From assembly GCA_017500935.1 (NCBI GenBank), contig JAFVXW010000020.1, positions 1 to 64,000 of the forward strand: a DNA stretch of 64,000 bases. The letters are read 5' to 3'. The position numbers and the translations under genes are program-made. Below are positions 1 through 29,272 of the stretch, piece by piece. The notes beneath the pieces are model-generated. The model saw only the letters and a program-made list of their open reading frames with translations, did no database searches and was not told where the DNA came from. The first letter of the stretch is position 1. Every line of letters starts with the position of its first letter. The stretch comes from Lachnospiraceae bacterium. GTDB taxonomy: Bacteria; Bacillota; Clostridia; Lachnospirales; Lachnospiraceae.

Positions 1-279
1 GCTGTCCGGGTCCTGCATGACAAATCCGATTCCAGCCGCCTGCGTGCGGCTGTCTGCCTGTTCAAGAAGAGCACCCTTATACAAAATCTCTCCCTCTTTT
101 TTTCCGTGAGGGGCTAAAACTGTCTTAAACTGGCGAAGCAGGGTGGATTTTCCGCAGCCGGAAGAACCGGCCAGCACTGCAAAATCGCCCTGCCTAAGCT
201 CCATGGAAACATGTTTTAAAACCGGAGCTTCCTGTTCCGGATAGGTAAATGTCAAATTTTGGATCTTAAAGAGTTCCAT
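1..279 (-). CDS. ECF/ABC transporter ATPase, 5' part only
   Basis: This is the N-terminal part (about 93 residues) of an ABC ATPase that runs off the left edge. The translation opens MELFKIQNLTFTYPEQEA, typical of energy-coupling-factor A subunits, and has a Walker A motif GSSGCGKST near residue 40 and a Q-loop region (GFVMQDPDS) at the window edge. The ATG at 277-279 lies inside the end of the EcfT gene, overlapping it by 28 bases, which suggests translational coupling. ECF A subunits hydrolyse ATP on the inner membrane face to drive vitamin uptake through a T subunit and a substrate-specific S subunit; no S subunit is in the window. Cobalamin as substrate is inferred from the riboswitches and lipoproteins of this operon. 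Confidence 0.85.
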   Translation of the reverse strand, partial: MELFKIQNLTFTYPEQEAPVLKHVSMELRQGDFAVLAGSSGCGKSTLLRQFKTVLAPHGKKEGEILYKGALLEQADSRTQAAGIGFVMQDPDS

Positions 280-1136
280 TTGCGATCCTCCATCAAATCA
301 ATGATCAGCGGCAATAAACACATACCGCTATAGCAAAAATAGGCTGCCGCCTGTATCACCCCCCAAAGTGTGCCGGTAAGTCCGGGATAATACTGCCATG
401 CCGTGTGACCGGTCAGACAGGGAATCGCCGCTCCCAGACACAAAACCACCAGCACGGTCAGAAAGCATCCGTCTCTTTTTTCAAACCGATAGATGGAAAA
501 AGCGGTTCTTCCCTGTACGCCGTATCCTCTGCTTTTCATGGAATCTGCCGAAATAATGGACTGCTCCATGGCCCAGCTGACCGTGGCTGAGAACGCGTCA
601 AAAGCCTGACGCAGTTTTTCCTTTGTATTTTCCGGCTTGTGCATCGCCCTCTGCGTGCGCAGTACACTTTGCAGAAAATGCTTAAACCGCGGTACAAACC
701 GGAGTGTCATGGAAATCAGCAAAGACAATGCCGGCAAAAGCCGCCCGAACAGATAAATGATCTTATCCGACGTAAACACCGTATTACAGCAGTTAAACCA
801 CACGATGGACGCCCCCATCATCACCGCAAAGGCAATGCCAAAACAGATGGCCTCCAGCGTGATCGGATTGTCATTGGGCAGATACCACAAAACAGTCACG
901 CCCTCATGATTAAAAGCAGGGTTTAAGACTGCCGTCAGTAACAGGATGGGCAAAAGATACCCTACCTGCCGCAGCATTCCCTTTTTTCCCTGCAGATAAA
1001 GCAGATAGGCACACCCGCTGACCATCGAGATCAGCAGGTATACCGGCTGCTGGATAAACATTGTCATCCCCAACGCTGCCGCAAAAAAAGCCAGATTGAC
1101 CGCCGGGTGAAAGCCCGAAAAAGCATCCTTATTCAT
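252..1136 (-). CDS. ecfT: ECF transporter transmembrane T subunit
   Basis: Integral membrane protein of about 294 residues with several hydrophobic segments, matching EcfT/CbiQ family proteins. The motif SMKSRGYG in the C-terminal half corresponds to the conserved Ala/Ser-Arg-Gly coupling motif that contacts the ATPases. EcfT links ATP hydrolysis to the S subunit. I chose ATG 1136 because GGAGAG lies 5 bases upstream; a longer reading would need a TTG codon at 1154. The start overlaps the stop of the DUF4430 lipoprotein by 8 bases (ATGAATAA), and the end overlaps the ATPase gene, so the three are coupled. The vitamin specificity cannot be read from T itself; corrinoid is inferred from context. 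Confidence 0.88.
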   Translation of the reverse strand: MNKDAFSGFHPAVNLAFFAAALGMTMFIQQPVYLLISMVSGCAYLLYLQGKKGMLRQVGYLLPILLLTAVLNPAFNHEGVTVLWYLPNDNPITLEAICFGIAFAVMMGASIVWFNCCNTVFTSDKIIYLFGRLLPALSLLISMTLRFVPRFKHFLQSVLRTQRAMHKPENTKEKLRQAFDAFSATVSWAMEQSIISADSMKSRGYGVQGRTAFSIYRFEKRDGCFLTVLVVLCLGAAIPCLTGHTAWQYYPGLTGTLWGVIQAAAYFCYSGMCLLPLIIDLMEDRKWNSLRSKI

Positions 1137-1644
1137 AAAGTCTCTCCGCTCCAAGATCCTCGCCCAGATTACAGGTATAACGAAACTGGATCACATCGCC
1201 GTCTGCCAGTGTATAGGCAGAGCTGCCCAGCCCGGGATAGGTGCCGTTTACACTGTACATCCATCCCGACTGCGATCCTGCATCGTACTCATAGAGGTTG
1301 CCGATGCCTTCTATGTATACAGAGTCATAGGCAGATGCATCCACATATTCAAAATGAAGCTTTTCTTCCCGCAAAAGTCTGCGGAACACATCAAAAACAG
1401 ATTCCCCTCCGGTAAATTCTGCTTCTGTTTCCGCCAGCAAAACACCGTCTGCCGGAACAAGTGCCGCTTTTTCCGGTGTCATCTCGTCCAGATGATCAAG
1501 AAGCGTATCGCACCTGATTTCCAATGTACAGCTGAGTTTCCCGTCTTTGTTTGTATCTTCCACATCCACCGCCTTTGTTTTTGCACAGCCGCAATACAAA
1601 GACAGCATCAGCAGCAGGATACATACCCCTGCCATGCGTTTCAT
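1129..1644 (-). CDS. DUF4430 (transcobalamin-like C-terminal) lipoprotein
   Basis: 171 residues. A hydrophobic signal ends in YCGC, so Cys20 is the probable lipidation site (weak lipobox, Tyr at -3). The mature part is one DUF4430 domain with the family signature SGWMYSVNGTYPGLGSSAY followed by LADGDVIQFRYTCNLGEDLGA. DUF4430 corresponds in fold to the small beta domain that closes over B12 in animal transcobalamin and intrinsic factor. The gene directly precedes ecfT and directly follows an alpha/alpha-barrel lipoprotein, so the two eukaryotic domains appear as adjacent separate genes. Start ATG 1644 has GGAGG 5 bases upstream; the longer frame begins with TTG. Predicted role: extracellular corrinoid capture for the ECF importer. 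Confidence 0.85.
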   Translation of the reverse strand: MKRMAGVCILLLMLSLYCGCAKTKAVDVEDTNKDGKLSCTLEIRCDTLLDHLDEMTPEKAALVPADGVLLAETEAEFTGGESVFDVFRRLLREEKLHFEYVDASAYDSVYIEGIGNLYEYDAGSQSGWMYSVNGTYPGLGSSAYTLADGDVIQFRYTCNLGEDLGAERLYE

Positions 1645-1656
1645 AAAAACCTCCAA

Positions 1657-2679
1657 TTACTTCATTCTGTACAAAGAAGCTTCACCCTGATTGGCGCGCT
1701 CTGCGGAAACCAGCGCATAAAATGCCTGCTCTGTCGCCAGAAGATTGCTTTCCTCGCCTTTTAAATGACTGTAACTGCCGTCTTCCAGACGAAACTGTGC
1801 CAGCGCATCCAACAGGGTATTGCCTTTTTTCACAAACCCGGAATCCTCAAGGGAAATGCCAAGTTCTGTTAATGCCACGATCACCTGGGAAACGGACTCG
1901 CTGCTCTCTGTCATGTCAGCACCGTAGCCGCCGTTTTCGTTCTGACTCTCAGACAGCACTTTAAGTCCCTTTTCCACCGCTTCTTCCACATCCTTACGAT
2001 CCTGATATTTGGCCAGTGCCTGCAGTACCATGGCAGTCAGGTCAACCTCAGCGGCAGCGCCGCCAATGCTCCAGCCGCCGTCAGGAAGCTGCGCGTTGAT
2101 GATATGATCCACATAAAGCTCTCTGGTTGCCTGTGTGCTTCCCACAGTATTTTCCGGGATTTCATAATTTCCCGCATCCAGCGCAAGAAGGGCAAACGCC
2201 GGACCGTTGACCCCCTGAAAAACAGTCTGTTCAAAATCCGCAAGAGGCGCAAGCATATCAAAGCCGCCCACATCGGAAGGATCTTTGTCAATGGCAGTCA
2301 CCGTCAGGATCACGCGGGAATACTCGGTGTATTTTTTGGCATGCAGAACACCGCCCTGCTGCGCGGTATAGGCAGACAGGTTTTCAAAATAGGTTTCAAA
2401 ATACTCGTCCCTGATGTCCATGCCGGATCTTGCAAGCCCCAGAATTGTCCACTCACCGCCCACAGATCCAATGGTGGGATTTTCCACATTTTTGTATAAA
2501 TAGTTTCCGGTCTGTTCCAGACTGTCTTTTATTGTCTGCTCATTCTGTATGCTTTCTGTCCTTTTGTCCGCTTTGCTGCCTGCTTCACCGGCCGTTTTAT
2601 CAGCAGATGCCTTATCACCGCAGGCTGCCAGCAGTACACACATATTTATCAGTAAAATCCAAGTCAGTATTTTTTTCAT
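1657..2679 (-). CDS. Alpha/alpha-barrel lipoprotein, intrinsic-factor-like
   Basis: 340 residues. A signal peptide ends in LLAAC (lipid Cys20), followed by a charged linker to about residue 50. The rest contains repeats of the prenyltransferase/squalene-cyclase alpha-alpha toroid type: QLPDGGWSIGG near 200, NENGGYGAD near 250 and LEDGSYSHL near 300, with intervening helices such as DLTAMVLQALAKY. The same toroid fold forms the large domain of animal intrinsic factor and transcobalamin. No DxDD cyclase acid motif is visible, so an enzymatic terpene role is unlikely. It sits 12 bases upstream of the DUF4430 lipoprotein within a cobalamin-riboswitch operon. Cobalamin binding is an inference from fold pairing and context. 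Confidence 0.75.
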   Translation of the reverse strand: MKKILTWILLINMCVLLAACGDKASADKTAGEAGSKADKRTESIQNEQTIKDSLEQTGNYLYKNVENPTIGSVGGEWTILGLARSGMDIRDEYFETYFENLSAYTAQQGGVLHAKKYTEYSRVILTVTAIDKDPSDVGGFDMLAPLADFEQTVFQGVNGPAFALLALDAGNYEIPENTVGSTQATRELYVDHIINAQLPDGGWSIGGAAAEVDLTAMVLQALAKYQDRKDVEEAVEKGLKVLSESQNENGGYGADMTESSESVSQVIVALTELGISLEDSGFVKKGNTLLDALAQFRLEDGSYSHLKGEESNLLATEQAFYALVSAERANQGEASLYRMK

Positions 2680-2694
2680 CCTTTTCTCCTTTTC

Positions 2695-5600
2695 TTACTC
2701 TGCTGCCTCTGCCGGAAATTCTGTGATTTTTCCGTCAATATACTGCAGGATCAGCACCGCATCGTTACTGTCGATACATCCATCACCGTTTACATCTGAC
2801 ACAGAAAGGCTCAGCTGCTTATCTGTCAGTCCTGCTTCAAAATCAAGGATCAGCTGCGCATCCTTTTTGTCAACCGTGCCGTCATTGTTCACATCACCGG
2901 CCGTACCGGCGGCAATGGTCAGTGCAATGGTCACATGCGGTGTTTCAGTCGCAATACCGCTGTCCATAGCAGTGCCGTTTTCTCTGTTATGATACATGAC
3001 ATGCTCAAAGGAAATGGTAAACACCGCATCCTGCTCAGTCAGCGCATCCTCATGATAAGAAATGTAATCCGTAACATCTCTGGTCATACCGTTTGCGTAA
3101 ACCGCAGTCACAGCCATACCGGACGGATCAAATTTTTCTCCCGGCAGATAACTGGTCTTTTCCGGCATCTGTGTGATCTCCAGACTCTCCACTGCACTGC
3201 CAAAAGCCATCAGATGTGCCGAGTCATTTTTAAAATATACGGTACCGTATTCATCCACGATGGGACTGCAGATCGCATACTGCGCCTGCTCTCCCGTGGG
3301 TGTAAACAGTGCATATGCTGTGGAATAGCTTCCTTCATCACTCTTTTCATCCGTCAGATAATCCGCTGATTCCATACCGGGTCTGTCACGCAGCACGCGA
3401 AGCTTGCCGGGTGTCATATTGTCAAAATAGTAAACATAGACGTAACCGCTCTCTGCTTCATAAGCTGTGGTCAAAAGTCCACTGGTCTGAGGATATCCCT
3501 GTGTCTGTACACTGTAGGCAATTCTGTGGCTTTCCAGATCCACCACTGTGATATTGTGACCGGAATAAGAGCCAAACTGCGCGGAACCGGAAACACCCAC
3601 ATACGCTCTGCCATTGTACACAACAGGGGAACAGGTACTCATAGGAATACCTTCTGTATGATTCTGCAGCTTCACTTCCCATTTATCTGTCAGTTTCAGA
3701 TCATCGGAAACGCTGACTCCATAGAAAGAGCCGCCTTTTGATGTAAAATAATAGCCTTCTGTCTGTTCATCGAAAACTACCGTACTGCGGATATCGCCGT
3801 TTAAGTTATCCCAGCTGTCCAAAAGCTCTCCGGTCTTTGCATCCATCAGTAAAAGTGCGGAAGAAGCAGTATTGCATCTGCTGGTTCCGTCATCTGTTCC
3901 CACTAAAACATAACCGTCATTCACATACGCTCCGGCCCAGTAATAACCGCCCTTTGCGGTACGTTTCCAGGATAAGCATTTGCTTTCTTTTGCCTGGGCA
4001 GGATCTTCGTCCGTAATTGTCAGGCAGACAAAATTGGCATCTCCTGTCTCGCTGTTCCAGAAACCGGTATACAGATAACCGTCTTTGATGTACAAAGGAC
4101 AGTTTGGCTGACCGCCCAGATCATCTGCATACAGCCACAAAGATTCCAGTGTATCCGCATTAAAGGCCTGTACACAGCCATTGGAAAGGGCGATAAATAC
4201 TATGCCCTCTGCATAGGCAGGAGGTGTGATGGAAAAGCTGGATTTATGATCCATCGTCGCCTGTGCCAGAATTTTACCTGTCACCGTATCAATCTTAAAA
4301 ATCTGATCACCGGCATAGGTGATGACTGCACCGTCCACAAGAATCGGACTGCCCACCGCATCGGCATCATAGCCTTCACCCAGTTTATTTGCCCAGTACA
4401 GGGTACTTTCTTCTGCCGCTGTCGGAATCTGCGCATCTGTCACTGCGTTATTGGATTCAAAACCTCGGAAATTGGGCCATGCAGAAGGAATATCCTTCTG
4501 AATCGCTGTATTTTCAGGTGCCGCTGCAAGCTCCCAGCCAACAGTCACGATACCGCCCTCACCGGACTCTGTCACAACATGGTTTGTCTCAATCCCTGCA
4601 GCGATGTCACGTACAACCAGCTCATTTGCTTCATTGCGGGTCACATCCAGCTGACCGGCTCTTCCCACATAGCCGTATTCTGTCAAGGTATACATGTAGG
4701 AATACCCTTCGCACAGCTGGAATGTGCCGTCCTCTGCCGGCCACAGACGCTCGCCGGACATCACTTCATACACATGAAACAGGGCATTATCCGGTACAGT
4801 CTCCACTGTCACCTCCACCGGCGGTGATTTCAGCACATTCAGGGTATAAATTCCGGTACCTTCCGGTGCCTTGTCATTTTCAACTGAAACTGTGACAGTC
4901 TGGGTATTCATGGTGCCGTCCAGTTCGATCAGTGCCTGAGAACTCTGTGTCACATCCACACCGTCTGCCAAAATCCGGTAACCGACACTTTCCTCTCCAA
5001 AGCAGCAGTTTTCCTCATAACGGGTAAAGTTAAGTTCCAGTGCAGCTGCCGCCATGGAAACCGTAATATCATAGGTTCTTACGCCGGGTACAAAGTTAAG
5101 TGTTTTGTCTTCCTGCACAAGTGTTGCTGTCACGCCGTCGCATTTTGCAGTGATATCCTTTAAGGAAAGCTCACGTTTAAATTCCACCAGATATTCCTGA
5201 TAATATGTCACACCATTGCTTTCTTTTGTTAAGCGGATCGTCAGCAGATTCTCAACAGGATTTTCATCCATCAAAAAGCGATTAAGCTTTTCGCCGGTTG
5301 TCTTTCCGGCAGTCAGTGTCAGCTTCATTTCTTTCTGATGATAAATATCACTGTTAAAAAGCTGGCTGTAAATGGCCTCTGCTTTCGTATCAGCCTTATT
5401 TTTTACATTCAGCCAAAGATATGCAATGTGCTCTGTATCGGGATATACAGCCTGATATTCATGATCAGCGGCTGTAAATGCACTGTCCAGCGCAATATTT
5501 CCTTTCTGTTTTTTTCCGCTGCCGGTTCCAAATGCCAGCTCCGTCAGCCAGTCCTGCATATCATCAAAATTGACTCTGATGATTCTGTCTGCATAATCTT

Positions 5601-7347
5601 CCAGTTTAAAATCATCTTCGATATGATAATAAACATCCTTTGTCGCGATATAATGATAGTTTTCTCCCGGAACCAGCGTATACACGTAACGGTTCTGCTG
5701 ATCTGTCTCTCTGAGCGTGGTATAAGGCATGATTACACCGTTGCTGTTTACCACTTCCACCGTCACTGTTTTATCTGAAATAAAAGAAAGTGTCTTTCCT
5801 TCACCCGGCTTGATATGCAGTGTGTAGGTATTGGTATAGGTTCCGGCACTGACTGCCACCTCCACCTTCATTTCACCGTCAACTGTATTGACCGGAATGG
5901 AAATCATATCAGAAAGTGCCTGTCCGTTAACCGTTATGGCATAATCATCTTCCAGTCCTTTTGCCGCAATCACAACAGCCGTCGTGGTATCCAGAATTTT
6001 GTAGGTATACTCATTGACATCCCCGGAAAACGCCTCGGTTGCCGCCTGATCTGTTCCCTTCTGATCAGACTCCGTGATCGCGGTCACTTGAATTGCTGTC
6101 AAAGTAGGGATACGTGTAAATTCCACGATGTAATCCTGAGAATAGGTATAGCCGTCATCGGCTTTATTGGTCAGCCGGTAGATCACCGTATTTCCCTGCG
6201 CGCCTTTTTTCAACACTTCATAGGCACCGCTTGTCTTGGAACCGAAAGCCAGCTTCTTTTCCATGGTCTTTCCGGTACTGGTCATGGTATAAACAGCGGT
6301 AAAATCAGGCACTTTACCCAAAACTGCAGTATCATACTCTGCGTTGACATAGACTGCTCCTGTAAACATATCCTTTACCGGTACAGTCAGCTGCCTGCCG
6401 TTCCACGCTCCCAGCGCAAATTCGCCGTCGATAAATCTGTGTTCTTCGTTGGTATCAGCACCATAGCTGCCGGAAAGCCGGAAGGTGTCTGTTTTCAGCC
6501 ACAGTTTGTCCGGCAGCTTTGCTGTAATGGAAGCATCCTTTGTGACTGTAATGGTTCCCTCCACACGCAGTCCGTCCTGCTCCAGACAAAAATCATAAGT
6601 TCCGGTGGGAAGTTCAAGCTTGCCGTCTCCTTCGTCCGTCCAGCTTTTGCTGTAAGGATTTTTCACAGAAAGGGTCACTCCCGGATAATTTGCTGAAGAA
6701 TACACCTTACTGCCATCGGTAAAGCTGACAGTATGCTTTGTTCCGTTTAGCAGTCCTTCGTATTCCTGCATTGCGGTATTCAGTTCACGGGCATATGCTT
6801 TCGCATCTTCGCTGCTGCAGCCTACAAACACCTTCACGGCAGTTTCATATTCTTCTTTCGCCGCACTTTGTACATCCTGCGTTTTTTCCAGATACTCTGC
6901 CATGGCAGTCATCAGCATCAGAAGTCCTTCGTTTGGTTTACTGCCGCTTATGTTTTCACTGAAGCGAAAATGTGTCACACCGGATGCGGGTGCCGCCAGA
7001 TCATAGCTGCCGTTTTGGTCTCCGCGGGTAAAATTGCCGGTTTTTCCGTCAATCTCCGTAATCTGTCCCTGTTCCAGACCAATAAAGCTATGTCCGCTGT
7101 CTGCCAGCACCTGTCCGATATTCTGATCTTTTTCATAGGAAATGTATTGAGGTGCGATCACCAGCTGACCGCCGGCTTCTGCTGCCAGAATGAATCTGCC
7201 GGCAGGCTCTGCGGCTAACGCTTTTACAGGCACAAAGGCCGCTGACAGCACCAGTGCCAGCACTAACATAAGCACTGACGCACGCGCACGCATATACACT
7301 TTCCTATGTGTATGCCCCTCTTTTTGCCATCCCTTTTTACTGTTCAT
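2695..7347 (-). CDS. Giant secreted beta-propeller protein with dockerin
   Basis: About 1550 residues. The N-terminus has a positively charged segment and hydrophobic core ending VKALAA (signal peptide). It is followed by a long run of beta-sandwich/cadherin-like segments with recurring phrases such as YSQDYIVEFTRIPTL and YYQEYLVEFKRELSL. A PQQ/WD-like beta-propeller region (about residues 980-1340) has blades such as GSPILVDGAVITYAGDQ and CPLYIKDGYLYTGF. An Ig-like Big domain (YLPGEKFDPSGMAVTAVY) follows, and a C-terminal type I dockerin has two calcium loops (GDVNNDGTVDKKDAQLIL; SDVNGDGCIDSNDAVLIL). Start ATG 7347 has AAGGAG upstream, preferred over the longer frame. It probably docks onto the cohesins encoded upstream. 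Ligand unknown. Confidence 0.75.
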   Translation of the reverse strand: MNSKKGWQKEGHTHRKVYMRARASVLMLVLALVLSAAFVPVKALAAEPAGRFILAAEAGGQLVIAPQYISYEKDQNIGQVLADSGHSFIGLEQGQITEIDGKTGNFTRGDQNGSYDLAAPASGVTHFRFSENISGSKPNEGLLMLMTAMAEYLEKTQDVQSAAKEEYETAVKVFVGCSSEDAKAYARELNTAMQEYEGLLNGTKHTVSFTDGSKVYSSANYPGVTLSVKNPYSKSWTDEGDGKLELPTGTYDFCLEQDGLRVEGTITVTKDASITAKLPDKLWLKTDTFRLSGSYGADTNEEHRFIDGEFALGAWNGRQLTVPVKDMFTGAVYVNAEYDTAVLGKVPDFTAVYTMTSTGKTMEKKLAFGSKTSGAYEVLKKGAQGNTVIYRLTNKADDGYTYSQDYIVEFTRIPTLTAIQVTAITESDQKGTDQAATEAFSGDVNEYTYKILDTTTAVVIAAKGLEDDYAITVNGQALSDMISIPVNTVDGEMKVEVAVSAGTYTNTYTLHIKPGEGKTLSFISDKTVTVEVVNSNGVIMPYTTLRETDQQNRYVYTLVPGENYHYIATKDVYYHIEDDFKLEDYADRIIRVNFDDMQDWLTELAFGTGSGKKQKGNIALDSAFTAADHEYQAVYPDTEHIAYLWLNVKNKADTKAEAIYSQLFNSDIYHQKEMKLTLTAGKTTGEKLNRFLMDENPVENLLTIRLTKESNGVTYYQEYLVEFKRELSLKDITAKCDGVTATLVQEDKTLNFVPGVRTYDITVSMAAAALELNFTRYEENCCFGEESVGYRILADGVDVTQSSQALIELDGTMNTQTVTVSVENDKAPEGTGIYTLNVLKSPPVEVTVETVPDNALFHVYEVMSGERLWPAEDGTFQLCEGYSYMYTLTEYGYVGRAGQLDVTRNEANELVVRDIAAGIETNHVVTESGEGGIVTVGWELAAAPENTAIQKDIPSAWPNFRGFESNNAVTDAQIPTAAEESTLYWANKLGEGYDADAVGSPILVDGAVITYAGDQIFKIDTVTGKILAQATMDHKSSFSITPPAYAEGIVFIALSNGCVQAFNADTLESLWLYADDLGGQPNCPLYIKDGYLYTGFWNSETGDANFVCLTITDEDPAQAKESKCLSWKRTAKGGYYWAGAYVNDGYVLVGTDDGTSRCNTASSALLLMDAKTGELLDSWDNLNGDIRSTVVFDEQTEGYYFTSKGGSFYGVSVSDDLKLTDKWEVKLQNHTEGIPMSTCSPVVYNGRAYVGVSGSAQFGSYSGHNITVVDLESHRIAYSVQTQGYPQTSGLLTTAYEAESGYVYVYYFDNMTPGKLRVLRDRPGMESADYLTDEKSDEGSYSTAYALFTPTGEQAQYAICSPIVDEYGTVYFKNDSAHLMAFGSAVESLEITQMPEKTSYLPGEKFDPSGMAVTAVYANGMTRDVTDYISYHEDALTEQDAVFTISFEHVMYHNRENGTAMDSGIATETPHVTIALTIAAGTAGDVNNDGTVDKKDAQLILDFEAGLTDKQLSLSVSDVNGDGCIDSNDAVLILQYIDGKITEFPAEAAE

Positions 7348-7364
7348 AAAGGTTTTCTCCTTCC

Positions 7365-10816: not shown

Positions 10817-10834
10817 AAGCAAAACCTGCTTTCG

Positions 10835-11770
10835 TTATTCTTTGATCACCGGCATTTTTACCGTTTCCAGGATGGACTGTAAAATACTCTCCGGCTTTTC
10901 TTCCATCATTCTTGCCTTGGTTGCCAGTACCAGTCTGTGACAGCAGGTATCGATAAAAACAGCTGCCACATCCTCGGGAACCACAAAGTTACGACCGTTG
11001 ATATACGCATAGGATTTTGCCATACGGCATACTGCCAGCGCACCGCGCGGACTTACGCCCAGCTGGATCATGGGATGTCTGCGGGTCGCCTCAGTCAGTT
11101 TGGTAACATATTCATAAATGCGGTCCTGTACCGCCACTTCCGATGCTTCCCGGATCAGTTCCTTTAACTGCTCATTGTCGACCACCGCATGAATCTTATC
11201 CAGCGGATTTTCGGTGTGGCGGTCTCTTAAAATGCTGATCTGGCTTTCCAGATCCGGATAACCCATGCTCATCTTGATCATAAAACGGTCCATCTGCGCG
11301 CTGGGCAGCAGCTGTGTGCCTGCAGAGCCTACCGGGTTCTGGGTAGCCAGCACCACAAAAGGACTGGGCAGCGGATAGGTTTTTCCATCCACGGTTACCC
11401 GCATTTCTTCCATCGCCTCCAAAAGTGCAGACTGGGTCTTACTGGAAGTACGGTTGATCTCGTCTGCCAGCAAAAGATTGGTCATGACCGCACCGGGCTT
11501 GAACACAAATTCATTGGTCTGCTTGTCAAATACAGAATAACCGATAATGTCAGAAGGCACCGTATCGGAGGTAAACTGCACACGGCGGGTATCCAGTCCC
11601 AGTACCTTTGCAAAGGCCATCGCGGTCGTGGTTTTTCCCACACCGGGTACATCCTCCATCAAGACATGACCGCCTGCCAGGACTGCCATCATGATTTTTC
11701 TGATATTTTCATTTTTACCTACAACGACTTTACCGATCTCCTGCAGGATTTCATTCAGTTTGGGATTCAT
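10835..11770 (-). CDS. MoxR family AAA+ ATPase
   Basis: 311 residues, normal for MoxR proteins. Walker A GVGKTTTA is near residue 43, Walker B LLLADEINRTSSKTQ near 105, sensor 1 LATQNPVGS near 145, and there is a C-terminal helical lid (GVSPRGALAVCRMAKSYAY). MoxR ATPases are cytosolic chaperone-like machines that act on VWA/DUF58 partners; here the partner follows 18 bases downstream. The start ATG at 11770 overlaps the end of the preceding giant protein by 20 bases and has AGGAG upstream, so expression is probably coupled to it. All ATPase motifs look intact, unlike the transglutaminase-like partner two genes down. Confidence 0.9.
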   Translation of the reverse strand: MNPKLNEILQEIGKVVVGKNENIRKIMMAVLAGGHVLMEDVPGVGKTTTAMAFAKVLGLDTRRVQFTSDTVPSDIIGYSVFDKQTNEFVFKPGAVMTNLLLADEINRTSSKTQSALLEAMEEMRVTVDGKTYPLPSPFVVLATQNPVGSAGTQLLPSAQMDRFMIKMSMGYPDLESQISILRDRHTENPLDKIHAVVDNEQLKELIREASEVAVQDRIYEYVTKLTEATRRHPMIQLGVSPRGALAVCRMAKSYAYINGRNFVVPEDVAAVFIDTCCHRLVLATKARMMEEKPESILQSILETVKMPVIKE

Positions 11771-21709: not shown

Positions 21710-21715
21710 TTGCAA

Positions 21716-21934: not shown

Positions 21935-24900
21935 TTACTGCTGTGCTGCCATAGCACCGGAAACAATGTAGTTGATGATCGCTGCAACGTCCTTGGTGTC
22001 CAGCTTTTTATCATTTTTCACATCTGCTTCAAGGAATTTCTTCATAGGCAGATTTTCAGTGAATTCGTCGTAAGAAGCATTGTACATATCGTAAACAAGC
22101 TGCGCATCATTGACATCCACTGCTGTGGTACCGTTGACATCGTAATTATATGCGATGTCTTTTGCAGTGCTGCCTTCTGCTGCCTGCGCGATAAGCTTTT
22201 CAGCTTCTTCCTTTACCAGTTCTGCAGTATTCATTTCATCAGTGGAAAGAACCAGCCAGCAGTAAGCACCGGCTTCTTCATATCCTTCAACACTGTATTT
22301 TGCAGAGTAATACATGGTGTCTTCACCATAAGCAAGCACCTTATCTCCCCACTTTGCAGTGATCAAGAACATTGCCTTTCCATCCAGAGAAATATATTCA
22401 CTTGCTTCCACGCTCAGCTTCACAATGTCGTTTTTGGTAATCTTGACGATGACATTTTCTTCACCGATCAGGCTGCCGTTAATGGTATAGCCATCTTCGG
22501 TTTCTTTCAGTTCTGTGTCTCCCACCTTAACTTCATAGGTATATTTCTCATCTTTGATCAGTTTAAAGGTGTAGTCTTTGCCGATTTCTGCAGAAGCAGT
22601 CAGGGAACCGCCTTCGATTTCTTCAACCTCGATACCTTCAAAGATGATCTTTGTCATCTTAACAGCGTCTTTTTCTTCAACCACAATGGTAAATGCACCC
22701 GCAATATCTTTGCCTGCAATGGTGTATTCTTTCTTTTCGGTATCAAAGGTATAAGTAATTTCGGTACCGTCTTCCAGTGTGATCTTGACAGAATCCACGA
22801 TCTTGCCTTCTGTTTCTTTTACTTTGAACACGTAATCCTGACCGTAAGTTGCCTGCTTTTCACCTTCCACATTTTCAGGTTTCGTAACCGGATAACTGTT
22901 GGCAATCCGTTCAGCGGTGATCACTACCGCACCTGTAACATTTGCGATCGTATATACGCCATTTTCTTCAGCAGGAGTTACTTGCTCTCCACCCACAGTC
23001 ACTTTCAGATTCTCATATTTATAATTTGTGGTATCACTGAAAGAGAAGGTATATTCATAACCGTGAAGCACCTTATCTTTACCTGTAACAAAATCAGGTT
23101 TTTCAACCGTATAAGGAACCTTGATAACGGATGTCGCAGGAGTATCATCATTTACTGTATCATCTGCATGATCAGCCTCTGCCTCAGGAGCATTTTTATC
23201 AATCGCATCCTCCTTATCAGAAACCTGTACTTTGGAAATATTCACTTCAGCAGCACCTTCTGCTTTGGTCTTAAACTTCAGAATAACCAGTTCCTGATCA
23301 AAGCTCTTGTCTTTACCGCAGCCTACAATATGTACAGAATTGCCGTCTGCTGTCACAGTACCGCCGTCATCCTTAACTGCACCGTCATATTCAATATTTC
23401 CGGATTCATCCGTAACCAGCTCCAGTTTGCCATTGTCAAAGGTCAAAGTTACATCATAAGCATTATATTCTGTAACTGTTTCATCAACATGACCGGTAAC
23501 TTTCACAGAAACCGTTGCTGTTCCTCCATTTTCTGCTGTTACGTCTGCAGAAGCTGCAAAAGTATAGCCATCTCCCTCTGCAGCCAGCTTTTTGAAGGTT
23601 GCAGTGACAACTACATTACCTGCCGGCATCTTAAAGGTATTATTTTCATCTACTGTAATCTGGCTGTCACCGCTTGTAACGATCAGAGATTCCAGTTCGT
23701 AACCTTCTTGCGCTTCAACATCCAATGTGATGCTTTCACCTTCTGCAGCAAGTTCCTTCCCGGGAATCACACTGCCGTGCTCTGCATTAACAGTAATGGA
23801 ATATCTGGTAATTTCTTTGAATTCAGCTGTAACAGAAACTTCACCCGCAGGCATGATAAAGGTATAGTCTTCGTTTACTTCGATTTCATTTTCGCCGCTT
23901 TTAACAGTCAGAGAATCCAGTTCATAATTTTCGTCTGCATTAACGGTTAATGCAACAACAGCTCCCTCTGCCGCATATGCAGGTTCTGCACTGACAGTAC
24001 CGTTTTCAGAAGTATTTACATGAATCTCATAGGTCTGAGAGGTGAATTCTGCGGAAACAACAACATCCGCAGCAGGCATCTGAAACTTATAATTGGAAGC
24101 ATCCAGACTTCCGCCATCATAAGTTACCTGGAATGTTTTAAATGCATAACCATCTTCGGCAACAGGTTCGAGATGCACAACATCACCTTCGGCAGCTTCT
24201 GTAATTTCTTCACCATCTTCATTGGTTGCAATGACACTGCCACCTTCAATCGCATCGTCGATATTGATGGCATATACAGTCAGCTCAGGGTCTTCACCAA
24301 AGCCGGTATCTTCCGCATAAAGGAAGGAAATCAGAGCAAGACAAGCAAAATTTGCATCTTCAATACCGAATGCGTGGGTTGCGTCACAATCTGCATCACC
24401 TGCAAAACAAAGTTCAACTTCTCCACTCCAGTCGGAAACCATCATGTTCATGGGAATTTCCACTTTGATTCCGTCGTCCACTTCCTCATAATCATAGGAA
24501 ATGTACAACATATCCCCGTCATTCAGAATAGGAGCGGCATAAGCAGTTGCCTTCATTTCTCCGGTTGTATAATCCTTCATAACCACCTGGTCGGGAGCAG
24601 TTATATAAGCAGTAGTCGCATCTGCCGGAATCGTCACAACATAGTAAGGAATCCCACTTATATCGTCCTGCTGTTCAATACCGGTGATATTTCCCGCATC
24701 CGTAGTAATTGCAGTAAAAGGTGCATCCTCAGGCATATCGGGAGCTGCCAAAGAACCTTCCACATTCAAGTTGCTGATTGCAGAATAATCAATTTCAGGT
24801 ACAATGCTTTCCAATGCAATATTGGTCATATTAAATTCAGTATTATCTTCATCAGCGAGTCTGATTTCAGGATCGCCGCCTGCAATAATCCTGAATTCAC

Positions 24901-25270
24901 CAACAAATAAAATACCGTTTGTCGTGGAATCGCTTGAATTCATAGCACCTGCTTTTGCATTGTCAGGATTGCAGTCCGCTGTCCATCCTTTGCTCCACAT
25001 GACATCTGATACAAAATAACCGTCAGAATCATAGACAAAATCAACAAACTCAACCACTTTATCATTCCAATCCCATGTTACGGTAATTGCATTTACACCG
25101 GGATTGTTTTCCAGAATAGCCGTCACGGTAAAAGTATCGTCGACAGTCATATCTTCTTCAAATGTGGTTTCAAAATAAATTCTCGGTTCCCCTGTCACTG
25201 CGAAAGCAGTTACAGGAAACATACTGATCAGCATAAAAACTGCCATCAGCATCGAAATTATTTTCTTCAT
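21935..25270 (-). CDS. Large cohesin/bacterial-repeat protein with dockerin
   Basis: About 1111 residues; ATG 25270 follows AAAGGAG at normal spacing (the longer frame starts with TTG). Signal peptide (ending FAVTGE), cohesin-like domain 1 (about 25-165; MTVDDTFTVTAILENN, VTWDWNDKVVEFVDF), a unique region, and four divergent InlB-type bacterial repeats (about 350-590; each ends near FIMPAGEVSVTAEF or FKMPAGNVVVTATF). Cohesin-like domain 2 (about 590-720; VSVKVTGHVDE, LTFDNGKLELVTD) is followed by short beta repeats, the shared module (SEYISLDGKAMFLITA, TMYYSAKYSVEGYEEAGAY) and a dockerin (YDVNGTTAVDVNDAQLVYDM; ADVKNDKKLDTKDVAAII). Secreted scaffold-like component. Confidence 0.75.
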   Translation of the reverse strand: MKKIISMLMAVFMLISMFPVTAFAVTGEPRIYFETTFEEDMTVDDTFTVTAILENNPGVNAITVTWDWNDKVVEFVDFVYDSDGYFVSDVMWSKGWTADCNPDNAKAGAMNSSDSTTNGILFVGEFRIIAGGDPEIRLADEDNTEFNMTNIALESIVPEIDYSAISNLNVEGSLAAPDMPEDAPFTAITTDAGNITGIEQQDDISGIPYYVVTIPADATTAYITAPDQVVMKDYTTGEMKATAYAAPILNDGDMLYISYDYEEVDDGIKVEIPMNMMVSDWSGEVELCFAGDADCDATHAFGIEDANFACLALISFLYAEDTGFGEDPELTVYAINIDDAIEGGSVIATNEDGEEITEAAEGDVVHLEPVAEDGYAFKTFQVTYDGGSLDASNYKFQMPAADVVVSAEFTSQTYEIHVNTSENGTVSAEPAYAAEGAVVALTVNADENYELDSLTVKSGENEIEVNEDYTFIMPAGEVSVTAEFKEITRYSITVNAEHGSVIPGKELAAEGESITLDVEAQEGYELESLIVTSGDSQITVDENNTFKMPAGNVVVTATFKKLAAEGDGYTFAASADVTAENGGTATVSVKVTGHVDETVTEYNAYDVTLTFDNGKLELVTDESGNIEYDGAVKDDGGTVTADGNSVHIVGCGKDKSFDQELVILKFKTKAEGAAEVNISKVQVSDKEDAIDKNAPEAEADHADDTVNDDTPATSVIKVPYTVEKPDFVTGKDKVLHGYEYTFSFSDTTNYKYENLKVTVGGEQVTPAEENGVYTIANVTGAVVITAERIANSYPVTKPENVEGEKQATYGQDYVFKVKETEGKIVDSVKITLEDGTEITYTFDTEKKEYTIAGKDIAGAFTIVVEEKDAVKMTKIIFEGIEVEEIEGGSLTASAEIGKDYTFKLIKDEKYTYEVKVGDTELKETEDGYTINGSLIGEENVIVKITKNDIVKLSVEASEYISLDGKAMFLITAKWGDKVLAYGEDTMYYSAKYSVEGYEEAGAYCWLVLSTDEMNTAELVKEEAEKLIAQAAEGSTAKDIAYNYDVNGTTAVDVNDAQLVYDMYNASYDEFTENLPMKKFLEADVKNDKKLDTKDVAAIINYIVSGAMAAQQ

Positions 25271-25299
25271 ACTCAAACTCCTTTTTTAGATAAAAAACA

Positions 25300-28194
25300 T
25301 CAGGGCCACTCTTCCAGTTTCCCAAGAGCATAACGCAGGATCAGCGCAGCATCTGTCGAAGTGATCAGCATGTCACCATCGGCATCGGCAACCGCATCAT
25401 TCACATCGTCTTCTTTGCCTAAAGCGTAACGCAGAACGATCGCTGCATCGGTACTGGTAATACTGGTATCGCCATCTGCATCACCGGTTTTCCCTTCATA
25501 CTCTTCCACAACCAGTTTAAAGAACGAAGCACCGGTTTCATAACCTGCAGACACAAACCCCTGAGCATCTTTGCCGCCGCCTTCGGTAAATCCGCCCTTA
25601 CCGCCAATATAGTAAGTACCCGGCTCCAGACCTGCGGTATTGATCGTAACAATACCGTTTTTATCCGTAGCCAGATTTTCGTTTTTACCAAGAGCTCCCA
25701 CATTCCAGCCGTTTGCATAATAAGGATTTCCTTCTTCATCCTCATATTCATCCGGAACTACCTGACCGGGAATACCGTCTTCATCTGCATTGACCCAGTA
25801 GAGCTGCTTATTGGGCTGGACAACATATTTGGTATCATAATTTCCGCTTGTACTGGTCCAAAAGTAAGTCAGCTTCACTTTCTCACCCTGATCCACCGTA
25901 ATTGTGTTTACTGTATCAGTGCCATGGTTGTACTTGTTGTTAGTATCGTTGGCAGTAAAGAAACCGAAGTTGGAACCGCTGCCCTGACCGGTGATCATGT
26001 GAACACTTACAATATCACCGCTCTGAATCTCAATCTGATCAGAGGTTGAACCCCATCCGACATAAGCCAGCGGATATGCATAATTGACATAATAGTTTAA
26101 GTTTGTGCCATGATCCCAGAAATCCATAAAGCTGGAACCTGCATCCTGAGACCAGGAAATGGCTTCCTTAAATGCTTCCGGATCATCCTGATAGGAAATA
26201 CCTGTACCAACCTCATCCTGGCTGTATCCCAGATAATAAAGTTCGGTCGCTGCAATGAACGCATGCATCACTGTGACATGATCATAAGCACTTTCCGGTG
26301 TACCTTTTTTCTGCTGGCTCCGGATACTGCCGTTTTCATCCACATAACAATAAGGATTGTAATAATACTTCTCCAGACCATACAAGGACAGATCAAAGTA
26401 CGGAACGGTAAGCTCCATATCAATCATGATTTCGCCGGAATCATTAGGTTCATGAAACTCATACCATCCTTCTGTTACCGTAAAATTCACAGTCACAGGC
26501 TTAATCTTGGAAACAGCCGCCACACCGGATACCATAATCCGGTAATCCTTTTGAACGTTGGGAATGGTATATACATTTCCTTCCCCGGTCAGCTCAAGTT
26601 CATAAGGCTTTGTTCCTTTATCCAGATCACTCTGGGGAATCACTTCCTGTGCAATGACCGTAAAATCATCACCGGCCTTAAATCCATCCACAAAATCCAG
26701 CGTAAAGGAATATGGCTCATCTCTCCTGGCTGTCTTTTCACCGTTTACCCGATAGCCATATCCTTCGCCCGGAAGTTTGATGGAATGTGATCCCGGGATG
26801 ACCTGTACTCCAAAAACAGTAACTGCCAAAGGACCGCTGACATTTAAAACGGTGTAGCTGCCGTCACTGGCAGGCTCAATCTCTTCGCCGTTGACCTTAA
26901 CCGCAAAATTATAGTCATTTGTTTCATAACCTGCGTTGATCTCAACAGTAAATGAATACGCCTTTCCCTGCTGTGCCTTGGCTTCACCGCTAAACGTACA
27001 GCCATTGTGATCCTGGAAAGAAACATCATAACTTTCTGTTTCTGTACTGCCAAGCGCACAGTTATCACAAACAGTACCTGTATGCTCTTTGGCAATCTGC
27101 CAGTCAAGAACCGGATAAGGACAGCTTGATACATAAGCGTCACCAAGCAACTGGACAAAATCTTCATCTGCCATAGCCGCCGCAGTCATTGCTTCTGCCC
27201 GGTAAACAGGTTCCTGTTCTGCACTGGTACTGAAATCCGGCACACTTTTTGCAGATACAGTACCCAGAAAATAGCAGTTGCTGATCACATTGGTGGTGTT
27301 ATACTGTCTGCCGATCACGGCATAGGTGCTGCTGCCTGCGTTATAACAATTCTGAACCTTCACACCGTTGTTTAAATGTCCTGCAATACCGGCTACTGCT
27401 GTGCTGCCTGTCACACGGCCGGTGTTATAGCTGTTTTTGATGTGATTGTCACCCTTATACCCCTGGTGCCAGCCGACAATACCGCCGACACATTCATTAC
27501 CGTGGATATTTCCGTTATTATAACAGCCCTCAATCCGGGTACTGATATAGCAGGCACTGCCCATAATACCGCCCACATAGTCATTGGCAGTAATACTGGC
27601 CTCATTGCCGCAGTTTTCGATCAGTACATCATTATAGAAGGTAGTGCCTTGCTGGCTGTATCTTACGGAACCAACGATACCGCCGACATAATTCTCTCTT
27701 GTGTTGGTAACCGTTGCCCTGTTGATACATCCGAAAATGTGTGTAAATGTCACATCATGTGCAATAGGAGTACGACGGACACTTCCGGCAGTTTTTACAT
27801 TCTGAATCGTTACAATGGCGTCAGATGTACCTTTCACAAAGCCAAACATGCCCCAGTTAGCCTCCTTAAAGGTAACTGTATGCCCCTGACCATCGAATGA
27901 TCCGGAAAATGGATAGTGATTGATACCGATACCGGGCCAGCTTGTCTGTTCTGTCAGATCAATATCTTCTGTCAGTACACCGCTGATACCCGTATTACCT
28001 CCGTTTACCTCTTGGGCAAACCAAAGCAGTTCTTCCGCGGTGCCAATCTGATAACAGTCATCCACAAGATCCGGTATTTCTGCTTCTGTACTTCCGCTTT
28101 TGACCGCCGCTGCATCAGCTTTGGTTCCAAAAACAGAAAAACTTCCCATCACCATGACAAGCGCAAGGATCAGGGCAAAAATGCGTTTACTCAC
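25300..28194 (-). CDS. GLUG-repeat, DUF4430-like, dockerin protein; first operon gene
   Basis: 964 residues, starting at GTG 28194 with AAGGAGG eight bases upstream. Signal peptide (ending TKADAA), then a right-handed beta-helix-type region with GLUG motifs (about 45-330; YVGGIVGSVRYS, CVGGIVGWHQGY, AVAGIAGHLNNG). Beta repeats follow, then a region of about 230 residues (about 600-850) with FMDFWDHGTNLNYYVNYAYP and DQIEIQSGDIVSVHMITG that reads like a divergent DUF4430 domain. The C-terminus is a well-formed dockerin (GDADGDTSITSTDAAIVLRY; ADADGDMLITSTDAALILRY). It is the first gene after three tandem cobalamin riboswitches and so is under their most direct control. Probable secreted ligand-binding subunit; ligand not proven. 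Confidence 0.75.
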   Translation of the reverse strand: MSKRIFALILALVMVMGSFSVFGTKADAAAVKSGSTEAEIPDLVDDCYQIGTAEELLWFAQEVNGGNTGISGVLTEDIDLTEQTSWPGIGINHYPFSGSFDGQGHTVTFKEANWGMFGFVKGTSDAIVTIQNVKTAGSVRRTPIAHDVTFTHIFGCINRATVTNTRENYVGGIVGSVRYSQQGTTFYNDVLIENCGNEASITANDYVGGIMGSACYISTRIEGCYNNGNIHGNECVGGIVGWHQGYKGDNHIKNSYNTGRVTGSTAVAGIAGHLNNGVKVQNCYNAGSSTYAVIGRQYNTTNVISNCYFLGTVSAKSVPDFSTSAEQEPVYRAEAMTAAAMADEDFVQLLGDAYVSSCPYPVLDWQIAKEHTGTVCDNCALGSTETESYDVSFQDHNGCTFSGEAKAQQGKAYSFTVEINAGYETNDYNFAVKVNGEEIEPASDGSYTVLNVSGPLAVTVFGVQVIPGSHSIKLPGEGYGYRVNGEKTARRDEPYSFTLDFVDGFKAGDDFTVIAQEVIPQSDLDKGTKPYELELTGEGNVYTIPNVQKDYRIMVSGVAAVSKIKPVTVNFTVTEGWYEFHEPNDSGEIMIDMELTVPYFDLSLYGLEKYYYNPYCYVDENGSIRSQQKKGTPESAYDHVTVMHAFIAATELYYLGYSQDEVGTGISYQDDPEAFKEAISWSQDAGSSFMDFWDHGTNLNYYVNYAYPLAYVGWGSTSDQIEIQSGDIVSVHMITGQGSGSNFGFFTANDTNNKYNHGTDTVNTITVDQGEKVKLTYFWTSTSGNYDTKYVVQPNKQLYWVNADEDGIPGQVVPDEYEDEEGNPYYANGWNVGALGKNENLATDKNGIVTINTAGLEPGTYYIGGKGGFTEGGGKDAQGFVSAGYETGASFFKLVVEEYEGKTGDADGDTSITSTDAAIVLRYALGKEDDVNDAVADADGDMLITSTDAALILRYALGKLEEWP

Positions 28195-28254: not shown

Positions 28255-28328
28255 GGAGCCCGGCTGATACCGTCAGTTCTGAAAAGACCGGACAGTATTT
28301 AGCTTAGGCTGCATATGTAATGCAGTTC

Positions 28329-28525
28329 GTAGGTCTTCTGACTTATACGTTCAGAGAGTTCTCTCAGCGCCTGCCTTTTGCCTTCTCAGGTTTTACCCCA
28401 ATGACCTGCTTTCGCAGAAAAAAGACAGCCTCCGTACATACAGCACCTCGGATTTTTATCCGCCGTGTTCCGGATTCTCACCGGATTCCCTTGTTCAGCT
28501 GAACAAGAATGCGTGTCTTTTGTTT
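28329..28525 (-). promoter_or_regulatory. Cobalamin riboswitch R1 (third in tandem)
   Basis: Minus-strand sequence shows the B12-box order: GGGAATCCGGTGAGAATCC, then GTGCTGTATGTACGGAGG, the loop GCGAAAGCAGGTCATTGGGG, CTGAGAAGGC and the closing AAGTCAGAAGACCTAC. This is the cobalamin riboswitch aptamer. It lies 135 bases upstream of the first operon gene. No strong intrinsic terminator was seen between it and that gene. Confidence 0.93.
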
Positions 28526-28570
28526 CCAATCGGTCGCGCATCAGCCACAAACTAAGCCGGATATCTATTT

Positions 28571-28590: not shown

Positions 28591-28640
28591 AATTCCTCAT
28601 TATTTTGCACAAGCAGCCTCGTATTATCGTTTTTTACCAT

Positions 28641-28675
28641 AAAAAAACGACAGCAAATAAACATTCGCTGCCGTT
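28641..28675 (-). terminator. Terminator of cobalamin riboswitch R2
   Basis: On the minus strand AACGGCAGCGAAT and ATTTGCTGTCGTT form a long stem with G-U pairs, directly followed by seven T residues (28641-28647 on the plus strand as A). It sits about 70 bases downstream of R2, the position of an expression-platform terminator. Confidence 0.85.
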
Positions 28676-28746
28676 TTCTGCTTTTTATACAAAGCCAATA
28701 ACCCCTTTGCCCATCGCACGGGTACAAAGGAGTCTCTTTCATTCCA

Positions 28747-28905
28747 GTAGGTCTTCTGACTTATGTCTCAAACAATGATCTGCCTGCCTTCTCAGAAAAA
28801 TCCAATGACTGACTTTCGTCAACGACAAACCATCTCGACACTTACAGCGCCGGCAGCGCGGGGACTTACACCCCATTCTCTTATTCAGCCAGGTACTCGT
28901 CATGC
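28747..28905 (-). promoter_or_regulatory. Cobalamin riboswitch R2 (second in tandem)
   Basis: The minus strand shows GGGGTGTAAGTCCCCGCGC, GCGCTGTAAGTGTCGAG, GACGAAAGTCAGTCATTGG, CTGAGAAGGCAGGC and AAGTCAGAAGACCTAC in the cobalamin aptamer order. It is followed by its own hairpin and U-run at 28641-28675, so it probably acts by premature termination. Confidence 0.9.
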
Positions 28906-28949
28906 GCTATACCCGGCCACTGGAACTAACTATTTATTTTTTTAATAAC

Positions 28950-29001
28950 AAAAAAGGTTATGGCGTTCTTACCTATATAAAGGCAGAATATCACCATAAC
29001 C
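28950..29001 (-). terminator. Terminator of cobalamin riboswitch R3
   Basis: The minus strand has GGTTATGGTG pairing with CGCCATAACC, followed at once by TTTTTT. It starts 29 bases after the end of aptamer R3, fitting a ligand-controlled terminator. Confidence 0.85.
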
Positions 29002-29029
29002 ATTCCTGGCAAGTATTCTATCGACCACA

Positions 29030-29195
29030 GCAGTTCTCCCGACTTGCATCTCAAACGAAGAAAGATCCTGCCTTCTCAGGTTGCCCCAATGACTGGCTTT
29101 CGCCAACGAATCTTTTTCTCGATGCCCACGGTATTGGTTAATGCGGGGATTTGGATAAAATCCTGACCCCATTCCCTTATGTAGCTCCAAAGCCT
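29030..29195 (-). promoter_or_regulatory. Cobalamin riboswitch R3 (first in tandem)
   Basis: The minus strand has AAGGGAATGGGGTCAGG, AAATCCCCGC, a variant core ACCGTGGGCATCGAG, then TTGGCGAAAGCCAGTCATTG, CTGAGAAGGCAGG and AAGTCGGGAGAACTGC. The core and closing sequences deviate from R1, R2 and R4 (CGGGAGAACTGC instead of CAGAAGACCTAC), so its corrinoid preference or affinity may differ. A terminator follows. Confidence 0.85.
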
Positions 29196-29243
29196 GACTT
29201 TTGTCTTTACAGCAAGGGAGCCTCTGTGCAATTTTCCGAGTTC

Positions 29244-29272
29244 ATTATAATTGATTTACTTTTAGATTACAA
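29244..29272 (-). promoter_or_regulatory. Promoter of the corrinoid operon leader
   Basis: On the minus strand TTGTAA (29267-29272) and TATAAT (29244-29249) are separated by exactly 17 bases. It lies about 50 bases upstream of riboswitch R3 and downstream of the preceding small gene, so it probably starts the tandem-riboswitch transcript. Confidence 0.75.

Follow-up and report, generated by a model that had tools for sequence, protein, structure and literature searches.

A bacterial transcobalamin-like clade, with toroids fused to beta-propellers and operons holding CbiO- and CbiQ-like genes, was described in 2007 by Burroughs et al., who predicted, in the passages given to it, that it serves B12 scavenging and surface complexes (PMC1796856). 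Among the importers of this vitamin, ECF-CbrT, an energy-coupling factor (ECF) transporter (entry 6FNP), is a measured importer of both cobalamin and cobinamide, as set out in the corresponding part of its description (PMC5997447). We describe here a minus-strand operon at one end of a window of 64,000 nucleotides, i.e., positions 1-64000 of contig JAFVXW010000020.1 (hereafter C3) in the 3.56-Mb draft genome of a Lachnospiraceae bacterium (hereafter G000), base 1 of the window being base 1 of the contig. Behind three cobalamin riboswitches, this operon codes for a series of secreted proteins with cohesin and dockerin modules, for predicted counterparts of the alpha and beta domains of transcobalamin and for ECF transporter subunits. 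We consider it probably a B12-repressed corrinoid-import operon whose binding proteins would form a cohesin-dockerin surface complex; corrinoid import is the well supported part of this reading, and a hand-over through cohesin-dockerin proteins is plausible. The core of the system was already predicted in 2007. What is new is the link to CbrT, the control by riboswitches in most loci tested and, in several genomes, the presence of B12 riboswitches ahead of cohesin-dockerin genes; for none of these did we find an earlier description in the open-licence literature. An earlier reading of this DNA, made from its letters alone (the sequence-only reading), knew of no described system of this composition and was thus half right, B12 scavenging by bacterial transcobalamin-like proteins with CbiO/CbiQ having been predicted in the 2007 text (PMC1796856).

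Corrinoid import is carried by the last genes of the row, which recur in other genomes in the order alpha-beta-EcfT-EcfA-EcfS. A profile search with alpha gave at least 565 loci, of which 80 named ones were kept (L-numbers below designate fetched loci, and G145, G146, G147, G148, G182, G151 and G156 comparison genomes). In the 54 loci that could be tested, with at least 6.5 kb after alpha, beta follows in 51 and EcfT, EcfA and EcfS in 45 each, and all four partners stand on the same strand in 44. The entire core is present, for example, in the loci of the cultured Fusibacter paucivorans DSM 12116 (L205) and Paenibacillus silvestris (L174). Twenty-one of the named loci, selected for long upstream flanks, were scanned with Rfam: a cobalamin riboswitch lies upstream on the operon strand in 16 of them, about 0.16 being expected at the density of these genomes (our own arithmetic from 158 riboswitch matches in about 101.7 Mb, with rounded genome sizes). 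All 20 cobalamin riboswitches found in these loci are on the operon's strand, and 19 of them precede the matched alpha gene. Across 145 relatives, at least 33 of the 89 places with a DUF4430 domain (88 over the Pfam cut-off) lie within 10 kb after a same-strand listed riboswitch, against three on the wrong side or strand; the former count is a lower bound, obtained from the listed riboswitch matches under stricter filters, plus two riboswitches added by hand.

Of the ECF subunits announced by the sequence-only reading, EcfT is whole, EcfA amounts to 93 codons and no S component is seen in the operon, because contig C3 starts at window base 1 and the operon is therefore incomplete at its 3' end. 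In two Oscillospiraceae metagenome-assembled genomes, G145 and G146, the last gene of the row, which matches the cut EcfA, encodes an EcfA-EcfA-EcfS fusion of 871 amino acids (aa). A profile of 21 S-component sequences from the relatives matches chain 6fnp_A over positions 4-175 of 175 with an E-value of 4.6e-14, its sole significant match in the Protein Data Bank (PDB; next best, 0.026). This chain is listed as 'Membrane protein', with 182 residues, and from its length and the S-component match, we infer that it is CbrT. The physiology of the hosts is consistent with such an importer. CbiD is a marker of the anaerobic B12 pathway. It was not found in seven of the eight genomes tested, which are drafts (G000, G145 to G148, G182 and G151), and B12-binding domains occur in seven of the eight, in six over the cut-off; in draft genomes, this combination fits a need for corrinoid from outside, on which the host organisms would depend. 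CbiD was found in G156, whose propeller protein is without dockerin.

The same modules were also seen in other arrangements. In many Clostridia and some Paenibacillus, a single open reading frame (ORF), about 770-1050 residues long, holds the matches to the EcfA, EcfA and EcfS profiles (e.g., L126:12229-14838). In L202 (JANQFZ010000062.1), an ORF of 1769 aa with five toroid-profile segments stands upstream of the core. In the window's own genome, a small unit behind a cobalamin riboswitch lies in L091 (G000:C29:130001-150000), at about C29:143338-144516. It codes for a DUF4430 protein whose start, judged by eye, resembles a membrane anchor, and for a protein of 163 aa that is like an ECF S component; its DUF4430 gene is the only other one of G000 over the cut-off (24.2 vs. 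23.8 bits).

The two predicted binders are encoded just before EcfT, and both have lipobox-like starts, as in lipoproteins (judged by eye). We take DUF4430, the domain of beta, to be the SLBB transcobalamin-like clade. The naming of DUF4430, in the pages where it is treated, supports this equation (PMC4350170). A natural toroid-DUF4430 fusion, homologous to the window's proteins, was modelled and compared by Foldseek: ranks 1-15 are all transcobalamin, haptocorrin or intrinsic factor, with E-values from 8.7e-12 to 2.9e-8 vs. 3.3e-5 for the next family, and the isolated beta domain of transcobalamin (5no0, 5np4) is matched as well. Together with the CbrT-like S component of the relatives and the riboswitches before the core, this architecture, which is that of the vertebrate B12 carriers, supports corrinoid import under B12 control, the part of the earlier interpretation that held up best. 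Several DUF4430 proteins had been announced: beta is over the cut-off, and a second, in the downstream frame (11751-14186) of a long secreted protein, is called by local profile only. Pfam DUF4430 was found neither in the window copy of this long protein nor in its intact G145 counterpart.

As the sequence-only reading had it, the operon is a minus-strand run of at least 14 genes behind three cobalamin riboswitches. Between 28194 and base 1, we count 16 ORFs on the minus strand, none of them separated from the next by more than 219 bases. They amount to about 15 genes, since ORFs 14180-15679 and 11751-14186 match one intact ORF in relatives (1235 aa in G145, 1220 aa in G146 and 1197 aa in G182). 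In the direction of transcription come the cohesin/dockerin set, the long DUF4430-like gene, MoxR, DUF58, TgpA, the propeller protein, alpha, beta, EcfT and EcfA. All three riboswitches are at or above the gathering threshold, and terminator-like hairpins follow the first and the second. No clear terminator was found between riboswitch 3 and the first gene (hairpin z -1.2); this riboswitch precedes a ribosome-binding-like site, AAGGAGGT, and a GTG start at 28194. A simple scan for terminators on the minus strand lists some inside ORFs and none in the two larger intergenic gaps, of 219 and 147 bases. The promoter-like site ahead of riboswitch 1 is weak on its own because the scan finds 42 such sites vs. 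30.7 expected.

Cohesin and dockerin modules form the second layer of the operon. They had been assigned to six proteins; the modules are present, and the count is seven; in four of these, at least one module passes the curated Pfam cut-off. The dockerins of the 964-aa, 250-aa and propeller proteins and the cohesins of the 250-aa and 772-aa proteins are over it, and the 354-aa, 578-aa and 1113-aa proteins are weaker calls, made below the cut-off or by local profiles only, whose E-values are optimistic because window proteins served as their seeds and the fetched loci were used for their iteration. The 354-aa cohesin-like protein, which has 73% identical counterparts in G145 and G146, shows a second hydrophobic run from residue 257 that fits a membrane anchor, in agreement with the single membrane-anchored member first proposed. 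The absence of carbohydrate-active enzymes, also noted at the outset, was confirmed in that the 16 operon ORFs have no Pfam match to such a family or to a carbohydrate-binding module (CBM) at E up to 0.1. All three over-cut-off dockerins of the 3.56-Mb genome G000 sit in the operon, so that their clustering exceeds chance, as do three of the four in G145 and all four in G146. As for the proposed MoxR/DUF58 pair, MoxR is over its cut-off and DUF58 below, and a TgpA-type transglutaminase stands besides.

The gene set was also searched for under cobalamin riboswitches in other genomes, and it was found in its order in two of them and in pieces in three. The ORF tables follow a greedy longest-first rule that hides some real genes (e.g., beta in G145 and G146), and were mended by tblastn and a six-frame scan. 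G145 (SVLI01000004.1) and G146 (JAFXAW010000048.1) carry the same genes in the same order, minus the 578-aa protein, an extra copy without a separate counterpart in either; three riboswitches precede the row, and cohesin matches come after them. Their operon proteins are mostly 45-85% identical to those of the window, the G146 counterpart of the 1113-aa protein being lower. These two genomes count as one lineage because their operon DNA is 95.6% identical over 22 kb. The 250-aa cohesin-dockerin protein has counterparts in G145 and G146 (54%) and in G182 (43%). In G182, one contig holds the genes from this protein to alpha, tblastn giving no counterpart of the 354-aa protein, and another holds tandem riboswitches followed by a 228-codon frame and a 3411-codon frame with a dockerin. 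On broken contigs, the gene directly after a riboswitch carries a dockerin in G148, where a cohesin gene comes next, and a cohesin in G147. The pieces in these three genomes presumably belong to one operon. A listed cohesin within 15 kb after a same-strand listed riboswitch occurs in four genomes (G145 to G148) and at 8 of 48 listed places in the 20 genomes covered by script; a further genome, G181 (41 matches), was judged by eye, and none of its matches lies within 15 kb on a contig with a riboswitch.

Between G145 and G146, the two cohesin/dockerin proteins that open the row (G145:C3:31374-37609 vs. G146:C48:31308-37243) are 58.5% and 38% identical, the latter value spanning 534 of 1132 residues; identity is 88% for the propeller protein and 96-100% for 11 of the 14 proteins of the operon. 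This fast-diverging promoter-proximal pair may be the outermost parts of the complex, setting what is captured, or adhesins.

In the alpha tree, the window groups with G145/G146 (support 100/99) inside a group of six rows (100/98) that includes L129, L132 and L176, and the propeller protein carries a dockerin in all six; the genome of L132 (G151) has this propeller dockerin and no cohesin match. Counting the window's own genome, 29 of 145 genomes of its wider kin have an alpha match, and the profile search found none in the 12 other genomes of the same genus. The nearest alpha relatives among the named loci are in Oscillospiraceae, not Lachnospiraceae. A gene on the window's contig, presumably RimO-like, shows an identity of up to 80% with genomes of the same genus, so that the contig fits the genus. 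Since the contig fits, the closest alpha is in Oscillospiraceae and none was found elsewhere in the genus, the operon was likely gained by horizontal transfer.

From these elements, the following mechanism can be proposed. When cobalamin is scarce, the three serial riboswitches would let transcription through, and when it is plentiful, transcription would terminate, as the aptamers and terminator-like hairpins suggest. The alpha toroid and the DUF4430 beta protein, two putative lipoproteins, would act as a split transcobalamin-like binder that sandwiches the corrinoid and passes it to the S component of a dedicated ECF importer, predicted to be of CbrT type from the S component seen in relatives. 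The secreted proteins would link to one another via cohesin-dockerin pairs and be held by the transmembrane cohesin-like protein, the resulting surface array capturing corrinoids or their carriers, and MoxR, DUF58 and the transglutaminase may help to assemble or cross-link it. Binding, hand-over, assembly and transcriptional read-through of the operon are what we infer here. A more specific picture, which we hold tentatively and on the doubtful side, is a cellulosome-like complex for a vitamin, under the control of the three B12 riboswitches: the anchored cohesin would hold dockerin-bearing capture proteins, including the propeller protein, beside the split transcobalamin, from which corrinoid would pass to the CbrT-type ECF importer, and the variable promoter-proximal tip would decide whether free corrinoid, cell debris or the B12 carrier of another organism is captured.

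Several observations weigh against a corrinoid-import operon with a cohesin-dockerin surface complex. On the structural side, the matches of the natural fusion to B12 carriers have TM-scores of 0.31-0.43 and an rmsd of 11.6-13.7, and VIA ranks squalene-hopene cyclase first for it. Alpha alone is nearer terpene cyclases, transcobalamin appearing first at rank 22 with Foldseek and not at all in the 50 rows of VIA; its sequence profile finds squalene-hopene cyclases, the best 60 of 70 matches at E up to 10 including no B12 carrier, and that of beta matches no PDB sequence. The carrier-like fold is moreover seen in a homologous fusion, and the window's alpha and beta are separate genes. On the control side, no cobalamin riboswitch was found in 5 of the 21 scanned loci (L129, L137, L146, L150 and L160), and 56 of the 89 places with a DUF4430 domain have no listed riboswitch within 10 kb. 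Several cohesin and dockerin modules score under the cut-off, and whole-protein Pfam on the G145 operon proteins gives a cohesin in one of five tested: the 786- and 1132-aa proteins have one over the cut-off in the genome scan (PF00963 at 30.2 bits for the latter, the counterpart of the 1113-aa protein) that the whole-protein scan does not list, and none is listed for the counterpart of the 354-aa protein. Finally, PF00963 cohesins occur in 21 of 39 alpha-carrying genomes and are not near a listed riboswitch in 17 of these, G182 being among the 17 because its pieces sit on different contigs. Cohesins therefore also serve other purposes and are no B12 marker alone. A cohesin-dockerin set outside cobalamin control had been named at the outset as what would speak against the proposal: the set was found behind riboswitches in other genomes, which speaks in its favour, but these 17 genomes have no listed cohesin within 15 kb after a listed riboswitch.

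These cohesins away from riboswitches are in line with a rather unlikely alternative, in which only the alpha-beta-ECF core imports corrinoids and the cohesin-dockerin proteins are a separate surface structure, for adhesion or attachment to mucin or fibre, sharing the B12-controlled transcript. It agrees too with most core loci examined, which are without cohesin or dockerin by local profiles, with the divergence of the promoter-proximal pair, as adhesins may diverge, and with the InlB-type repeats of the 1113-aa protein, which are common in surface proteins. It accounts less well for the propeller protein, which is encoded directly before alpha and also bears a dockerin, and whose family is fused to DUF4430-type domains in other such operons (L139, L157 and L170), nor does it explain why nearly all dockerins of G000, G145 and G146 sit in the operon. 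We regard it as improbable that a related compound (cobinamide, a different cobamide or a different tetrapyrrole) is imported in place of cobalamin. CbrT itself takes cobinamide, according to the part of its description cited above (PMC5997447), and Pfam places the S component in a generic riboflavin-type ECF S family (45.6 bits), which also weighs on the corrinoid reading as a whole; but ECF-CbrT is the only significant PDB match of this component, a B12 riboswitch stands upstream in 16 of 21 loci, and cobamides and cobinamide would still be compatible with corrinoid import. Very improbable, in our view, is that the system does not work in its host, the copy in the window being in decay or wrongly assembled. 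The contig does end in EcfA, leaving the copy without S component, the long DUF4430-like gene is split over two frames, alpha was found in none of the 12 other same-genus genomes and the genome has a contamination of 5.67%; on the other side, the contig fits the genus, the remaining ORFs have full-length counterparts in the same order, and horizontal transfer accounts for the rest.

Table 1. Features of the operon, its leader and the neighbouring riboswitch (positions in the window; bits against Pfam or Rfam models; % identity to G145, G146 or other relatives).
Feature	Position	Strand	Evidence
Fourth cobalamin riboswitch	32466..32674	minus	RF00174 93.8 bits; upstream of a separate gene pair
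Promoter-like site	29244..29272	minus	just before riboswitch 1; TTGTAA-17-TATAAT, 10/12 matches
Cobalamin riboswitch 1	29012..29217	minus	RF00174 32.1 bits, barely above gathering 31.5
Terminator-like hairpin and T run after riboswitch 1	28945..29003	minus	-21.6 kcal/mol, z -5.5 vs. 200 shuffles
Cobalamin riboswitch 2	28729..28939	minus	RF00174 60.0 bits
Terminator-like hairpin and T run after riboswitch 2	28638..28686	minus	-20.3 kcal/mol, z -6.1
Cobalamin riboswitch 3	28311..28563	minus	RF00174 54.7 bits
Secreted protein, 964 aa, C-terminal dockerin	25300..28194	minus	Dockerin_1 34.9 bits; Glug 19.3, below cut-off 20.5
Secreted protein, 1113 aa, InlB-type repeats, cohesin-like and dockerin-like modules	21935..25276	minus	Flg_new_2 over cut-off; dockerin 16.4 bits, below; cohesin by local profile
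Secreted protein, 772 aa, two cohesin stretches, Big_2, dockerin-like C terminus	19397..21715	minus	Cohesin 31.0 bits; Dockerin 15.0, below cut-off
Cohesin-like and dockerin-like protein, 578 aa	17644..19380	minus	local profiles only; no Pfam family
Cohesin and dockerin protein, 250 aa	16895..17647	minus	Cohesin 35.2, Dockerin_1 23.3 bits
Cohesin-like protein, 354 aa, transmembrane-like segment, candidate anchor	15827..16891	minus	Cohesin 17.4 bits, below cut-off
Long secreted protein, DUF4430-like segment, two overlapping frames (14180-15679, 11751-14186)	11751..15679	minus	DUF4430-like by local profile only, E 8e-12
MoxR AAA ATPase	10835..11770	minus	AAA_3 191 bits; 85% counterparts
DUF58 protein	9680..10822	minus	18.9 bits, below cut-off 23.4; 74% counterpart beside MoxR in G145
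TgpA-type membrane transglutaminase	7365..9665	minus	Transglut_core 43.7, TgpA_N 33.2 bits
Secreted beta-propeller protein, 1563 aa, C-terminal dockerin	2695..7386	minus	PQQ_2 31.5, Dockerin_1 29.3, Cadherin-like 28.2 bits; BamB-like by profile
Alpha: alpha/alpha toroid protein, transcobalamin alpha-domain counterpart	1657..2679	minus	model pLDDT 93.9; sub-threshold SQHop/prenyltransferase Pfam matches
Beta: DUF4430 protein, transcobalamin beta-domain counterpart	1129..1656	minus	DUF4430 59.9 bits, cut-off 23.8
EcfT (CbiQ family)	252..1154	minus	CbiQ 31.2 bits; 83% to G145 ORF
EcfA, truncated by contig end	1..279	minus	ABC_tran 47.6 bits; 93 codons; 77% over 93 aa

Upstream of the operon, the best-scoring cobalamin riboswitch of the window is the fourth (region 30354-32674), which has a terminator-like hairpin of its own (z -4.9); for the 637-aa protein behind it, no PDB relative reaches significance and Pfam gives just a weak match to a TIM barrel (E 0.058). 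A DUF2284 gene (predicted metal-binding) lies at 29799-30335, just upstream of the operon's riboswitches, and relatives of this gene also accompany riboswitches, standing just ahead of them in G146 and G148:C77 and in their vicinity in G182:C33.

This locus supplies concrete candidate proteins in many uncultured and some cultured Bacillota. Through it, the bacterial counterparts of the B12 carriers of humans are connected with an importer of CbrT type and with B12 riboswitches. These proteins allow one to test the idea, put forward in 2007, that the B12 carriers of animals derive from Gram-positive bacteria. If binding is confirmed, they would represent a new microbial way to grab a scarce vitamin, and the assembly of proteins by cohesins and dockerins, if true here, would extend from fibre breakdown to vitamin capture.

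Compared with the transcobalamin-like (SLBB) proteins of Burroughs et al., the locus has the same toroid and beta-grasp, propeller fusions and ABC/ECF genes alongside; it differs by its separate alpha and beta proteins and its cohesin-dockerin layer, and the main text of that paper contains none of the words riboswitch, cohesin and dockerin, while its passages on these proteins name no S component (PMC1796856). With the vertebrate transcobalamin, haptocorrin and intrinsic factor, which are the best Foldseek matches of the natural fusion, it would share an alpha/alpha toroid followed by a beta-grasp domain, but in the window, these are two separate predicted binders, for which no sequence match to the vertebrate carriers was found among the matches listed. 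The BtuG, BtuH and BtuJ proteins of Bacteroides are likewise riboswitch-controlled extracellular B12-binding proteins feeding an importer, whereas they use a BtuB-type outer-membrane route and other domains (DUF4465 in BtuJ), as the passages on them report (PMC13398666). Like the cellulosome and amylosome, the locus has cohesins and dockerins on many co-encoded secreted proteins and a candidate membrane-anchored cohesin, but without any matched carbohydrate-active enzyme or CBM family and with B12 riboswitches upstream. Finally, ECF-CbrT of Lactobacillus delbrueckii, in the sections of the paper that describe it, has EcfT, two EcfA and an S component homologous to that seen in the relatives (PMC5997447), while here, the importer would belong to a dedicated operon, with EcfA, EcfA and EcfS fused in many relatives, extracellular binders encoded beside it and riboswitch control.

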